Below, piece after piece: positions 53,197 to 60,026 of a stretch of 64,000 bases of DNA. Made by a program: the position numbers and the translations under genes. Origin of the DNA: Lepidurus packardi (taxonomy: Eukaryota > Arthropoda > Branchiopoda > Notostraca > Triopsidae); contig JAKZAN010000006.1 in the NCBI GenBank assembly GCA_023053545.1, positions 4,283,001-4,347,000 on the forward strand. The letters are read 5' to 3'. Each line of letters starts with the position of its first letter. The first letter of the stretch is position 1. The notes under the pieces were generated by a model. The model did not search any database. It saw nothing but the letters and a program-made list of their open reading frames with translations, and was not told the origin of the DNA.

Positions 53197-56032
53197 TTAT
53201 TCCTTCTTAGTTACGTCTTCTTTCACGTCGTCAGCTTCGAACTGTTGTTCAAACTGTTCTTCGGTAATCTACAAAAAATAGTTCTATTTAATATACAATT
53301 TTAAATTCTCTTTAAGGCCAGTGTACTGCAAGTAGTTGACAAATTTTGCCAAAGATGGCGCTAGTGTCATACCGTTTCTCATTGCAATATCATAGATTTT
53401 AAACAAGAAATTAAAAGAAACAAAAAAAGATAATTTAAGAGTTATTTTTCTAAACATATCTTAATAACATAATCTATTTTACCTGCTGATAAATGATTTA
53501 GTGATTAATGATTTAAAACGTTAATAACTCGAACACCATGGAAAAATCAGTGAAACAGACATAAAAAATGAGAATAAGCAGGTAAAATAGATTTGTACAT
53601 GCCATGCATTACTGTCACAACATAATTTCACTATATTGAGTGAGAATTTTCGAATCAAAATATGCCATAAGGGGTTCCAGTATACCGTGGCTTTAATACA
53701 AAACTGCTTATTCATACGTACTTTTCCTTTCTTCAATTTCTTCATAAGTGCTACGTCCTTAGCTAAATCATCCCACTCTTCCGGGTCAACCACTCGCTTC
53801 CGTTTCTCAGCTTTGACCAATTTCTTCTCTTTTTTCTTTCGCTTCTTCTCGTTAGAATTGGACCACGATTCCGTTTGTTTGGCTACCATCCTTTTCTTGG
53901 CACCGGGCCAACTTCCCGTTTTCTGGTATTCCTCCAGTTTTTGTTGGCGGACTTTTTCTCGCGTTTTATCCTTATAAGAGATCTTGTTCAAATCCACCTC
54001 AACAGAACAAAACCCTTCGAGAGTTCGACCTTTAATTTCAGGCATTTTAGGCAGTTTCAATAAACCAAAACCGGTGGCTAACTTCCCAAAATCCAAATCT
54101 TAAAAAAAAAAGGTTTTTTTTTTTTTTTTTTTTTTTAATGGAATCTATTCAGAACCTTACCCTTCACTCGAAGTATGACATTACACTCGTGCTTGCTGTA
54201 AGAGCGAATGTAGGAGACGAAAGCGCGTGTGGCCTTATCGGCAATGGCTCTGTCTTCTAATTGAAACTGCCTCATTTGAGCTAATAAAGCAGGACTGGAT
54301 TCAAGCGCGTCCATTTCTTCAAGTCTTACCTAAAATAGCATTAAAAAAAGATTATTATTTGAAATTTTTATGGATTATTTGTGAGTTTTTTTTTGGGATT
54401 ATTTTTGGGATTTTTCAGGAAATTTACTTTTTGGTTAATGGCAATAAACCGGACGTAATCTTCTTCATTAGGCAGGAGTAAGACAAGCGCAGCTCCATGT
54501 CTCCCAATACGAGCTGTGCGGCCGCAACGATGGACAAAAGCAGCCGCCGATGACGGAGGGTCAAACTGAATAACCCAGTCTACGTCAGGAAAGTCAATTC
54601 CACGTGCCATGACGTCAGTGCAAACCAAGACACCTATTTTACACCATACCGTGACTTGTCGCTTTTACTCTTCCATCCAGAATGCCTTACCAGTTTGTTG
54701 GTTGCGAAAGCTCTCGAATATTTTTGTTCGCGCTTGCTTCATTTTCCCATGAATGCAGAGAACTGGCAGAGAAGTTATTAACCTGTGTGGGGATTTAGAA
54801 AGAATAACACAAAAATTAAATTTATGAAAAGTTACTTCCCGACGACACGACACGTACCGTTTCAGCACCAACGAAAAGTATTCGACGGCTGCGCAAGTTG
54901 ACATGAAAATCATAAACTTGCCAACCGGCTGTGATTTAAGGAACGAAACGAGCGTGGAAAACTTCTCATCGGCTTCTACAATCTTGTAATAATTATCGAG
55001 GTTGGCAGGAATGCGAGACTCGTCAAATACACCCTGGAAGTGTCCATTTTGAGCTTATTTTTACAATTTAAAATGATAAGAAATACTTTTTCTTTGACAG
55101 ATACCACGACAGGGTTCCGTAATCCTGCTCGAGCGAGATTTTCTAGCTCGTGAGTTTGAGTGGCAGAAAACAAACCAGTTCTTCGCTGCTTAGGTAAAAC
55201 ACTAAGAATGCTATTCACGCTAGCTTCAAATCCAAGGTCGAGCAATCGATCAGCTTCATCCAGAATGAGAACTTCCTAAACCAATCCGAAAATATCTGTA
55301 TAAATTCTTTGCAACAAACGTTTAAGGCATTTCGTATGTTTCGAAATTAAACAAGGGTCCTCCCTTCCCCCGCAAAAAATGAAAAAGCGCTATTGTACAG
55401 GAAGATTTAAGATAAATACCAGTGCTTTCAATCCAGTTACTAGTTTGATAGCGTCTTGTTGTCTCGTTAGTAAGTCTTCTAAACGACCAGGCGTAGCTAT
55501 GATGATGTGTCCTCCATGCTCTTCAAATAAATGAATATCTTCTGCTACTTTAGTACGACCTCCGATATAAGACAACGTCGTAAACTGAGGTAAATTCTTG
55601 AGAAAACTAGCCAAGACTTCGCTAATTTGACCGGCTAACTCTCTTGTGGGAGAGATTATTAAGGCGCCGATATCATGTGTTCTCAAGGGTTCGGGGCGAC
55701 TCTAATAAAAAAAAAGAAAAAGATAGTCTTTAGGATCATCGGGAATTTTTATAAGAATTTTCTTGCATGAACCTGTAGAATTTCGAGGATGGGAATAAGG
55801 AAGGCTAAGGTTTTACCACTTCCCGTTACAGCTTCAGCGGCAATATCCTTCTTTTTCAATAGAAGAGGAATACAGGCAGCCTAGCAATAGTATATGTTTA
55901 GAAAGTGTCGGTAACAAATGTTTAAGATTCTAGTACCTGGACGGGCGTTGTTTTATGAAAACCAAGTAGTTCAAGGGTTTGTAAAACAGGCTTGCTTAGC
56001 TTAACATCGAGTTTATCCCACTCATTTTCCAT
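53197..56032 (-). CDS. DDX55: DEAD-box RNA helicase DDX55 (Spb4 family)
   Basis: Ten exons on the minus strand (56032-55937, 55880-55773, 55701-55420, 55275-55087, 55033-54858, 54782-54691, 54633-54428, 54329-54161, 54098-53722, 53268-53197) give 588 codons plus TAA. Human DDX55 is 600 aa. Helicase motifs in order: Q motif [10 protein letters not shown] (to residue 32), motif I AVTGSGKT (49-56), PTRELA (86-91), [13 protein letters not shown] (168-171), SAT (199-201), [14 protein letters not shown], and HRCGRTAR (349-356). [40 protein letters not shown] and the downstream [24 protein letters not shown] are diagnostic of DDX55/Spb4. The Lys-rich tail ([18 protein letters not shown]) suits nucleolar localisation. 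Role by family: ATP-dependent remodelling of pre-60S rRNA in the nucleolus. The last exon is only 72 bp. All motifs look intact. Confidence 0.96.
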
Positions 56033-57050
56033 TTGCTGGCCTATGCAGCTAAAAGGAAACTAATTCAGTAATAATTTGAACAACAGCACGTGGTTTATGT
56101 GATCTTTCCTATCATGGGATAATGCACAAGGAAAACAAAGCAGTTGTCGGACTATAGATCGTTCGAAATTCTCCGAAGGGACGCAAGCGCTTCAAGCGGA
56201 GACTTCATGTATTAGATTACTTTGTAAGTTTCAATTTAGAATTCATCTGGCTTACTGGCTAATATCGGACACCAGTTGAATATTCAAGCAACACCTAGAT
56301 CAAAGAATCATCACCTGAACTGGAGGTGGTAAAGGCTAAGAAATTTGCTATTACAGGACAAAGCAAATGGGAGAAATTTAAAAACCAAAAGGACAAGAAC
56401 GAAATAAACGAGATGTATAGGGTCTGTTCTTAAAAAAACAAAACAACATATTTTAAGACGATCAGAAATGTTCTGCTCCTTTTCAGTAAATCGGAAGCAG
56501 TCGTTATTCATGACAAGCCAAAAGGCAGGTCATGTTTCCAAATCCGTTCCCTTAATTTCGGTTGACTTGGACTTACTATTTCAAGCACTGCTTGTATACG
56601 CAAATTGACATCTAATCGTTTATTTAGACCTACAAAGTTAGATCCCTTGACATTCCTTGTATGTATGAAGATATATGACTGCAGCAGGTATCACCTCCTT
56701 TCTTGAATCTCCCAACTCTTTCAAAACTGTGTCTCTTCGTTGCTAAGTTCGTGAAGATTCATTCATTTTATACCTTTCTGGGACACTTATTTTTCGTTTC
56801 TACAACGTTCCTGATGCCGTAACTTGCTTGAAAGTGAGTCCCATTCCTTTATTCTTTCCCACAGTTTAACAGGGCCAACAAACTTTTTTGCCTCAACTGA
56901 TATACTTACTACAGCAACGTGGCTCAAACGAAAGATACGAACTATACCAGTCTTCCACATAACCATTATAAAGACTGGGATAAAAAAGTAAGTTAAAACT
57001 CCTGTACAACTTTTTAAACATTTTCTTACGAGGCGAGTGGCCTCGAATGG
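56033..57050. other. Intergenic region between divergent DDX55 and the peroxidase-like gene
   Basis: About 1.0 kb upstream of both genes. The DDX55 promoter must lie next to 56033, but I see no TATA box there. The remainder is AT-rich and I recognise no exon, RNA gene or repeat in it. Confidence 0.5.
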
Positions 57051-57058
57051 TATAAAAG
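57051..57058 (+). promoter_or_regulatory. TATA box of the peroxidase-like gene
   Basis: TATAAAAG within GGTATAAAAGGG lies 174 bp before the predicted start codon. A transcript start about 30 bp downstream (near 57080-57085) would give a 5' untranslated region of about 140 bp. That leader contains an immediate duplication of AGAGAGCTAAC near 57120-57142. A strong TATA box fits a regulated, tissue-restricted gene, unlike the TATA-less neighbours. Confidence 0.65.
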
Positions 57059-57224: not shown

Positions 57225-60026
57225 ATGCGGTTCTCGCTATTCCTTGTTGCTGTAATATGGCAGTCCGCCTTGCTTATTTCCGGTAAACATGTATTTTAAG
57301 TTTTAAAATTTTACCTGAAACAATTTAATTTTTAAAATAATTTATTTCAAAATTTTACTCTCCTTCATAATGCTGGGTTTGTCCTCTCTTGAATTACTTC
57401 CAGTTCGGGGGAATGCTTATTACTTCAACATGAACCAAACCATACTCCGTGCCCTTGATGTTGCCCTTGACCGAGTGGACAAGCAGGTCGCCTTCGAAGT
57501 CTCCGTGCTAGACAACGGAGAACAAGCACCTCCACGTTCTGAAGCCTTTGGCGCAGCTCTTATTTGGTCTACTACTGCCGAGGCTCGCATAGAAGGAAGA
57601 AAATCCATGGTTATGGGGGAGTTTACGCAGGCTCTTCTTGATTTGTGAGTATAGGACTAACCTACAAGTCAAACAAGCTTCTATAAATCCCGTTTTTATT
57701 TCATAAGGACCTTCCTTACCATCCGCGAAGTTGACAAGGTTGATCCCATGCAATCTGAGAGCTTACGTCCCTATTGCCACATCACGCCCACCTGTAGTAG
57801 AACCATGCGTTTCGAAAACATCGACGGCTCTTGTAACAACATCCAGAATCCAACTTGGGGACAGTCGAACAACGCTCAGATTCGACTTTTGGAACCTGCC
57901 TATGCTGACGGTAATTTGTCAACGCTTGAAAGTTACCCATGTCTAATCATTATGTCCTTTACCACAGGATTGCACGCCCCTCGGATTTCAGTGAGCGGCA
58001 AACTTCTTCCTAGTCCTCGTTTAATCAGCGCGAAAGTGGTTCTGAGCCAAGACAGGCCGCGTCCGGATTATACCATGTGGATCATGCAGTGGGGCCAATG
58101 GACTGGGCATGATATGTCTCACGTACCAGTTCGAGCTCTAAGTACAACCCGTACTCAGTACGTAGTTACATAGTTTAATATGTTTTGTTTATTAAGGTGA
58201 TTTCATTGCCGTCCCTTGTTGCACGGAGGATGGCAAGTTTATCAACCCTAGCAATCTTCATCCACAGTGTTTGCCCATACCCATACCTACAGATGACCGT
58301 ATCTACGCTACGTTCGGGAGAACTTGCATGCCATTCATTCGGTCCATGACAGGTCTGCTTCCTGGTTGCAAGTTAGGACCTGCGGAACAAGTAACAAGTC
58401 TTTCCAAAGATGGCCTCTCGGTATAGAGCTTTAACTAATCACGAGTTCTTTCCTATAGCTCAACCAAGTCACGCCCTTGATCGATGGGTCTCAGATCTAC
58501 GGCAGCACTTTGGTCCGCTCGTTAGGACAACGCAGCTTCACGAGAGGGATGCTTAAGACTATTACGGTTGAAAACCGCAATTTCCCACCGATAAATATGG
58601 AATCTAGCGCCTGTTTCACGGACGTTTGCTTTGAAGCGGGTAAATTCTTGATCTCCTTCCATTTTCCCTAATTATCGGCTGTATTCTTAACAGGTGATCT
58701 TCGTGTTAACTACCATCCTCAATTGACTGCGACCCATGTGATCTGGCTCCGTGAACACAACCGCATCGCTCAAATACTTGGTCAAATTAACCCCTTCTGG
58801 GACGATGACCGAGTCTTCCTTGAAACTCGCCGCATCGTGATCGCCGAATTGCAGCATATCACCCTGAATCACTGGATGCCCAACATCATAGGTAACATTA
58901 TTACATGTCCATTTTAAGTTTCTTTAATTCTAGACTGTTAAACTTTCTTTACCTTCTCAGGCTGGGATATCCTGGATCAGTTTGGCATTGCTTGCAGAAC
59001 GGAAGATAACTACTGCAACACTTACGATCCCAACGCGAACCCTTCCATCAGCAACGAATTCGGCGCAGCTACTGTTCAATTCGTCGATAACTTCGTCCAA
59101 GGCCTAATCGAGTATACTTTCTTACTTTGTAACACCCTTAAGTTTTATTTTCACATTTTCTCCATAGATACTATAATGACCAGTACCAATTGTACAACGT
59201 CACGAACCTGAGCAACATGTACAACGATCCCACCCTTTTGCTCCAAAGGACCAAGGACTTCGATGCGATCATCCGTGGGTTGCAGACCCAGGCTATTCAG
59301 AACTATGACAGTTTTGCCACCGCTGAGGTGATCCAATATTAAATATACTGGTCATTTTCTATTCTTTTTCTAATTATCTAACCGATATTTCATGTCTGAA
59401 CCTTTTCTTAGATTACCAGCAAACTGTTCCGAGTTGGCAATCCTGTCGGCTTGGACCAAATTTCCTTGACTTTACAACGTGGAAGAGACCATGGACTGCG
59501 CCCATACAACGACTACCGTGAGCTTTGCCAGGTCGGACGTGCTAAAACCTTTGAGAATCTATTACCCGAAATGCCAGCTACTGTATGTATAGTTTAAACC
59601 ATGAGGATTTAAGCAATGTTCTGTATATTAATAAGCTTTTTTTTCGATTCATAGACAGTAGAATCCTTGAAGCGTATTTATGAAACAGTCGACGACATCG
59701 ATCTTTTCATTGGTGGATTTGTGGAACGTCCACTCCCGGGTACATTGCTGGGACCTACTTTCTCCTGCATTCTTGGCGACCAGTTTATTCGTACCGTCAA
59801 AGGCGACCGTTTCTTCTACTGGCTTGGGAACCAACCTCATGCCTTCACTCAACCACAGCTTCGACAGATTCGCGCGATTTCCCTCGCCCGTGTCCTCTGT
59901 GACAACAACGATGGTAGCATCGCTTTCATCCAGCCCGACGTCTTCAAAATAGCTGTTGGTGCCAATGCTCGAGTGCCTTGTTCTTCGATCCGCGGCATGG
60001 ATTTGTCTGCCTGGGCTGAGGCTTAG
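57225..60026 (+). CDS. Secreted animal haem-peroxidase-family protein, predicted catalytically defective
   Basis: Eleven exons (57225-57282, 57404-57644, 57708-57910, 57968-58150, 58197-58390, 58459-58639, 58694-58891, 58961-59111, 59168-59327, 59412-59582, 59655-60026) give 703 codons plus TAG. A signal peptide (MRFSLFLVAVIWQSALLIS) precedes an An-peroxidase domain: MQWGQWTGHDMSH (207-219) with distal His215, LNQVTPLIDGSQIYGS, LRVNY (356-360) with catalytic Arg357, WLREHNRIA, LQRGRDHGLRPYN and a Cys-rich C-terminus. Active family members such as myeloperoxidase and peroxinectin oxidise substrates with H2O2. Three key positions are changed: Gly214 for the haem-linking Asp, Tyr360 for the haem-linking Glu, and Asp462 (EFGAATVQFVDNF) for the proximal His that ligates haem iron. 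KGD at 629-631 overlaps the family motif GDRFW, so it is weak evidence of integrin binding. The exon 4 donor (CCC|GTACTC) is set by frame and is the least certain junction. Confidence 0.9.

Follow-up and report, generated by a model that had tools for sequence, protein, structure and literature searches.

The requirements for activity in the peroxidase-cyclooxygenase group have been set out by Zamocky and colleagues, who describe functional members as carrying GQxxDHD, RxxE, and a proximal His bonded to Asn, and families 1-3 as carrying a calcium motif in addition (PMC4420034). Myeloperoxidase and lactoperoxidase are described in the same work as having an axial His and a covalently attached haem, and the peroxidase domain of DUOX as mutated and inactive (PMC4420034). 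Haem-less peroxidase domains are already known. According to the structural report on human DUOX1, its peroxidase domain is missing the haem ligand and shows no haem density, two cation sites are kept, and assembly with DUOXA1 fails when either cation site is mutated (PMC7794343). A second example is LsPxtl-1 of the salmon louse, whose first domain is said to be without the typical haem-binding features; Prosite and InterPro are reported to give opposite answers as to which domain binds haem, and two-domain relatives are noted in Daphnia (PMC10579435). These haem-less domains found in the literature, in DUOX and in LsPxtl-1, are parts of larger proteins. Among the literature matches listed, taken at the level of titles and the beginnings of abstracts, there was no stand-alone secreted animal peroxidase homologue without the axial His.

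Here we describe a gene, termed W, on the forward strand of a 64,000-nucleotide stretch of the Lepidurus packardi genome (C5:4283001-4347000, referred to as the window; the assembly contains 344 contigs and 108.6 Mb). W is, in our judgement, probably a secreted single-domain peroxidase homologue that no longer ligates haem or catalyses the peroxidase reaction and has been kept as a folded extracellular binding protein. Its features are collected in Table 1. The coding sequence is 2112 nt long with zero internal stops, and the ten introns are 46-121 nt in length and all of the GT-AG type, which agrees with the intact frame over 11 exons claimed in a preliminary description of this DNA. The TATA box named there is present as a TATAAA string, which we list as a candidate. 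When a spliced aligner was given the W protein itself, it returned the same ten introns, although this check is circular. When guided by the paralog K, it placed nine introns over W residues 27-702 and made exon 4 three residues (TTR) shorter; the end of exon 4 is therefore fixed only to within nine bases, in frame, and the haem residues lie elsewhere. W is likely secreted, with a hydrophobic N-terminal stretch as its probable signal peptide (the highest 15-residue hydropathy is 2.2, starting at residue 6). Head to head with W, exon-like open frames are found on the minus strand at 53521-56059, and these carry motifs that we take to be those of a DEAD-box helicase.

Table 1 Features of the W gene, in positions of the window.
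Feature	Position	Strand	Basis
Gene W, 11 exons, 703 aa	57225-60026	+	Exon joins; Pfam PF03098, 591.6 bits
TATAAA, candidate TATA box, 174 bases 5' of ATG	57051-57056	+	String search
Exon 1, hydrophobic leader (likely signal peptide)	57225-57282	+	Hydropathy
Exon 2	57404-57644	+	
Exon 3	57708-57910	+	
Exon 4, distal motif GQWTGHD: Gly214 at ester-Asp position; His215, Asp216 kept; end uncertain by nine bases	57968-58150	+	
Gly214 codon GGG	58105-58107	+	
Exon 5	58197-58390	+	
Exon 6, VTPLIDGS: calcium-loop residues Thr298, Asp302, Ser304	58459-58639	+	
Exon 7, GDLRVNY: Arg357 kept, Tyr360 at ester-Glu position	58694-58891	+	
Tyr360 codon TAC	58711-58713	+	
Exon 8, proximal block NEFGAATVQFVDNF: Gln459, Val461, Asp462; also Cys431, Cys438	58961-59111	+	
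Asp462 codon GAT, axial His position	59086-59088	+	
Exon 9	59168-59327	+	
Exon 10, SLTLQRGRDHGL: Thr543 at position of Asn bonding axial His	59412-59582	+	
Exon 11, C-terminal part, KGD 629-631, stop at 60024-60026	59655-60026	+	

At an E value of 0.001, W matched one Pfam family alone, An_peroxidase, over profile positions 2-530 of 530. Its best PDB matches are myeloperoxidase (E 3.3e-67) and lactoperoxidase (E 6.3e-67), which have the family and the domain limits in common with W. All three signatures of functional members are broken. The distal G-Q-x-x-D-H-D reads GQWTGHD, in which the His is kept and Asp is replaced by Gly214; R-x-x-E reads RVNY, in which the Arg is kept and the ester Glu is replaced by Tyr360; and in place of the proximal His-Asn pair there are Asp462 and Thr543. 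The calcium-binding motif of families 1-3 appears to be preserved in W (D216, T298, D302, and S304), and judged by their spacing the same four residues may correspond to cation site 2 as described for DUOX1 (D109, T170, D174, and S176, PMC7794343). The 703 aa of W, with their single Pfam domain and the stop codon at their end, hold neither an NADPH oxidase part of the DUOX type nor a second peroxidase domain, and tblastn found no second copy in the window.

The residues of W were compared with those of its paralogs, denoted by letters. A PF03098 search of the same genome gave at least 109 exon-wise matches (81 of 92 candidates scored). Twenty stretches were fetched and 23 pieces modelled, and 21 loci, W included, were remodelled against the first-pass proteins; where the first-pass model of K, B, or H was longer, it was taken instead. 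The remodelling did not include R, which matched only distantly and in part, and S2, U1, and U2 stand outside the alignment, which contains 20 domains including W. S, represented by its first part alone, was omitted from the tree (19 rows). Fourteen domains (A, D-K, and M-Q) are haem-complete, with the distal Asp-His, Arg, axial His, and Asn; this set excludes W, B, C, Lg, T, and S, the last of which is incomplete. The virus and prokaryote contig collections yielded no orthologue, with no pattern match in viral_contigs and nine pattern stretches in genome_contigs, none of which proved to be a relative by tblastn.

In pairwise local alignments, Asp462 lies opposite His in 16 of the 18 paralog domains and opposite Thr in C; B is unaligned at this point and has Leu at the position in the multiple alignment. 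The same 16 domains have Asn opposite Thr543, where B has Leu and C has Val. This family-invariant Asn, two residues ahead of the Gln in LQRGRDHGL, is N421 in myeloperoxidase numbering. Nearby, Gln459 faces Arg in 17 of 18 domains and Val461 faces Gly in 16 and Val in C (B unaligned in both cases). At the positions of the ester links, Gly214 stands where all 14 haem-complete domains have Asp and where B, C, Lg, and T have other residues, and Tyr360 faces Glu or Gln in 17 domains and Asp in B. Residues retained in W include Gln211, His215, Asp216, Thr298, Asp302, Ser304, Arg357, Asp538, and Arg546. Fourteen of its 16 cysteines are common to J and K, and Cys431 and Cys438, just 5' of the proximal helix, are found in no other aligned paralog. 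Of the three PDB alignments listed, both of those with myeloperoxidase pair D462 with the block's His, a single gap lying close by, and the one with lactoperoxidase has a different register around D462. The preliminary description had named Asp462 for the proximal His, the loss of the nearby Arg and Gly and of both ester-link residues, and the retention of His215, Arg357, the cysteine framework, and LQRGRDHGL, and each of these points is borne out by the paralog alignments, as is the first by the alignment to myeloperoxidase that it had proposed as a check. It missed the replacement of Asn, the partner of the axial His, by Thr543. Its proposal of a preserved fold with lost peroxidase chemistry is well supported by the residue pattern.

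Other paralogs also depart from the standard pocket. N, O, P, and Q (L020, L021, and L022) are otherwise haem-complete and have Gln in place of the ester Glu (RVNQ, RANQ), which may leave them with a single ester link to haem. Lg and T (L018 and L026) are divergent domains that have lost the distal His and kept the proximal His and Asn; we call them DUOX-like from this divergence alone, not from an oxidase part.

The losses in W are unevenly distributed. Eighty columns are invariant in the 14 haem-complete paralogs and W has lost 12 of these, namely 5 of 9 in the haem set versus 7 of 71 elsewhere (Fisher p 0.003); this set of ten positions, nine of them invariant columns, was drawn from myeloperoxidase residues and picked after the replacements had been seen, so this p value and the next two are descriptive and not tests. 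Without Gly461 the counts become 4 of 8 versus 8 of 72 (p 0.015), and with columns allowing one deviant they are 5 of 9 versus 14 of 115 (p 0.004). In a leave-one-out comparison, none of the 14 haem-complete paralogs has lost a haem-set column that is invariant in the other 13, and their losses overall range from 0 to 14 of 80-94 columns, highest in E (14/94). B and C have each lost 6 of 9 haem-set columns, with 12 of 71 (B) and 6 of 71 (C) lost elsewhere, and Lg and T have each lost 2 of 9, with 21 of 71 (Lg) and 23 of 71 (T) lost elsewhere. The losses are concentrated in the haem set for B and C as for W, but not for Lg and T.

In the maximum-likelihood tree, J and K are the closest relatives of W, which is sister to the two (95/97), and all three fall within a group with I, M, O, N, P, and Q (98/96). 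The identity between W and K is 43.8% over 680 aligned positions. J and K themselves (L016 and L017, C3:768-780 kb) form a duplicate pair, separated by about 8 kb, with 94% identical proteins, and we take them to be arthropod peroxidases of the peroxinectin/chorion-peroxidase type. B and C, both of which have lost the axial His and the Asn, are sisters (100/99) away from W. A single shared loss in a clade of W, B, and C was rejected, as the constraint costs 44.4 log units (AU p 0.003); the test is subject to the same attraction between long branches as the model, and the group was chosen with the alignment already in view. When introns of equal phase lying within 3 columns of each other are counted, W has 7 or 8 positions in common with every one of I, J, K, M, N, O, P, and Q, 1 with C, and 0 with B. 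The introns that it shares with each of these eight paralogs mark W as a DNA-level duplicate and not a retrocopy. Taken together, the rejected clade and the few introns shared with B and C make two or more separate losses of the axial His probable in this genome.

B and C stand in tandem pairs on the same strand, B followed by A (L009, C4:10699000-10707500) and C followed by D (L010, C4:13388000-13396000), and the frame continues for about 40 or more codons beyond the end of B and of C. These pairs look like double peroxidases with a first domain lacking the axial His and Asn and a second, haem-complete domain. A further locus, U, consists of scattered peroxidase fragments (L027-L028, C1:3101500-3117500) with the best score against K and is probably a decayed copy.

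We next consider whether W is a duplicate heading to loss under relaxed selection and without function, which is the best of the alternatives and still unlikely. Its branch is fast, with a length of 1.12 versus about 0.43 for J and K, and unique changes in W outnumber those in K by 89:45 with N as outgroup and by 80:49 and 112:59 with the other two outgroups. The longer branch and the greater number of unique changes also fit relaxed constraint, and W has lost 12 of 80 family-invariant columns, against 0 to 14 of 80-94 in the haem-complete paralogs. Against this reading, in a codon model of 9 sequences and 562 codons, an omega of 1 on the W branch was rejected (2 delta lnL 38.8, p 5e-10). A free omega for this branch was no better than a common one (p 0.16); the W branch length ran to its bound through saturation, which makes the omega value for W itself unusable, and the branch, drawn from paralogs of one genome only, covers time before and after the loss of the haem pocket. 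In a neutral simulation, stop-free copies numbered 1 of 1000 at 0.1 substitutions per site and 251 of 1000 at 0.02, so that a very recent death of W would still be compatible with its open frame. The 703 open codons with ten GT-AG introns, together with the codon model, argue against a dead gene, as do the concentration of losses in the haem pocket and the origin of W as a DNA-level duplicate. W is constrained over its branch, faster than its sisters, and intact.

It is slightly less probable, and again unlikely, that W binds haem non-covalently through another ligand (His215, His361, or Tyr360) and acts as a carrier, a sink, or a weak peroxidase. The distal His215 and Arg357 are kept, Tyr360 and His361 both lie in the distal segment, and C and O have His361 as well. 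For human DUOX1 and 2, weak haem binding without the covalent-link residues is described, and the catalytic Arg of C. elegans HPX-2, which is likewise without these residues, is reported to be needed for full pathogen resistance (PMC6368334). However, W has lost the axial His and the Asn that partners it, as well as the Arg and Gly of positions 459 and 461, and the DUOX1 peroxidase domain as reported has no haem density (PMC7794343). A new catalytic activity on the old scaffold is quite improbable: a carboxylate, a Tyr, and two extra cysteines are newly placed around the old pocket, but there is no further enzyme domain, with a single Pfam family matched at E 0.001. Finally, it is most improbable that a form with His is concealed by an artefact of assembly, allele, or splicing, since six replacements across exons 4, 7, 8, and 10 agree in direction, the near-identical matches among the 63 genome-search candidates scored, of 94, are only the window's own exons, and an alternative exon 8 carrying a His, a possibility raised in the preliminary description, is unlikely to fit inside W because exon 8 is 151 nt long and the largest intron 121 nt.

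The reading of W as a haem-free binding protein is therefore the one we prefer. Since the axial His and several pocket residues are replaced, W most likely works without haem, the absence of which we infer from sequence. The three failed signatures, the retained calcium residues, and the precedent of DUOX1 together point to a folded, haem-free, calcium-stabilised secreted protein. Calcium and disulphides would hold the fold together in place of haem, and Cys431 and Cys438 may form one extra disulphide pair just before the old proximal helix. The distal His215 and the catalytic Arg357 count against this reading, as they would not be needed in a wholly haem-free protein. W would act by binding, either as a ligand for adhesion or in the matrix, in the manner of peroxinectins, or as a catalytically inactive companion of the haem-complete paralogs. 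These two uses, adhesion and partnership, are the most plausible ones, although any partner role and any ligand can only be guessed. Peroxinectins (family 3) are defined by cell adhesion together with peroxidase activity and by a KGD integrin motif. A KGD at W residues 629-631 lies within the GDRF segment of the family and is weak evidence, too weak to prove adhesion, as Gly-Asp occurs in this segment in 11 of 19 domains, W included. A wider proposal is possible but rather doubtful: that haem-free extracellular pseudo-peroxidases arose here at least twice through the same His-Asn loss, once as the stand-alone secreted W and once as the first domain of double peroxidases (B and C), and that W is a calcium-stabilised, non-catalytic partner or ligand regulating its haem-bearing relatives. 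If this pair of residues was indeed lost repeatedly, a non-catalytic use of the fold itself would be suggested.

Compared with the known systems, W differs from myeloperoxidase and lactoperoxidase, which have a covalent haem and an axial His. The peroxinectin/chorion-type J and K are like W in intron positions and cysteine framework, but their haem set is full. DUOX1, as described, is similar to W in having a peroxidase fold without the haem ligand and with its cation sites kept, but it is part of a large membrane NADPH oxidase, whereas W is one domain; the DUOX-like Lg and T are the reverse of W, with the distal His lost and the proximal one kept. The first domain of LsPxtl-1, from its published description, and the domains B and C have lost haem-binding features as W has, and the B-A and C-D pairs resemble the two-domain LsPxtl-1. 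In each of these cases, however, the altered domain precedes a second, haem-complete domain, whereas W stands alone. What seems to be new is thus a stand-alone secreted member of the family that has lost both the axial His and the Asn, apparently independently of the losses in B and C. Such a form, found together with haem-complete sisters in one genome, would allow the structural roles of the peroxidase fold to be separated from its catalytic ones.
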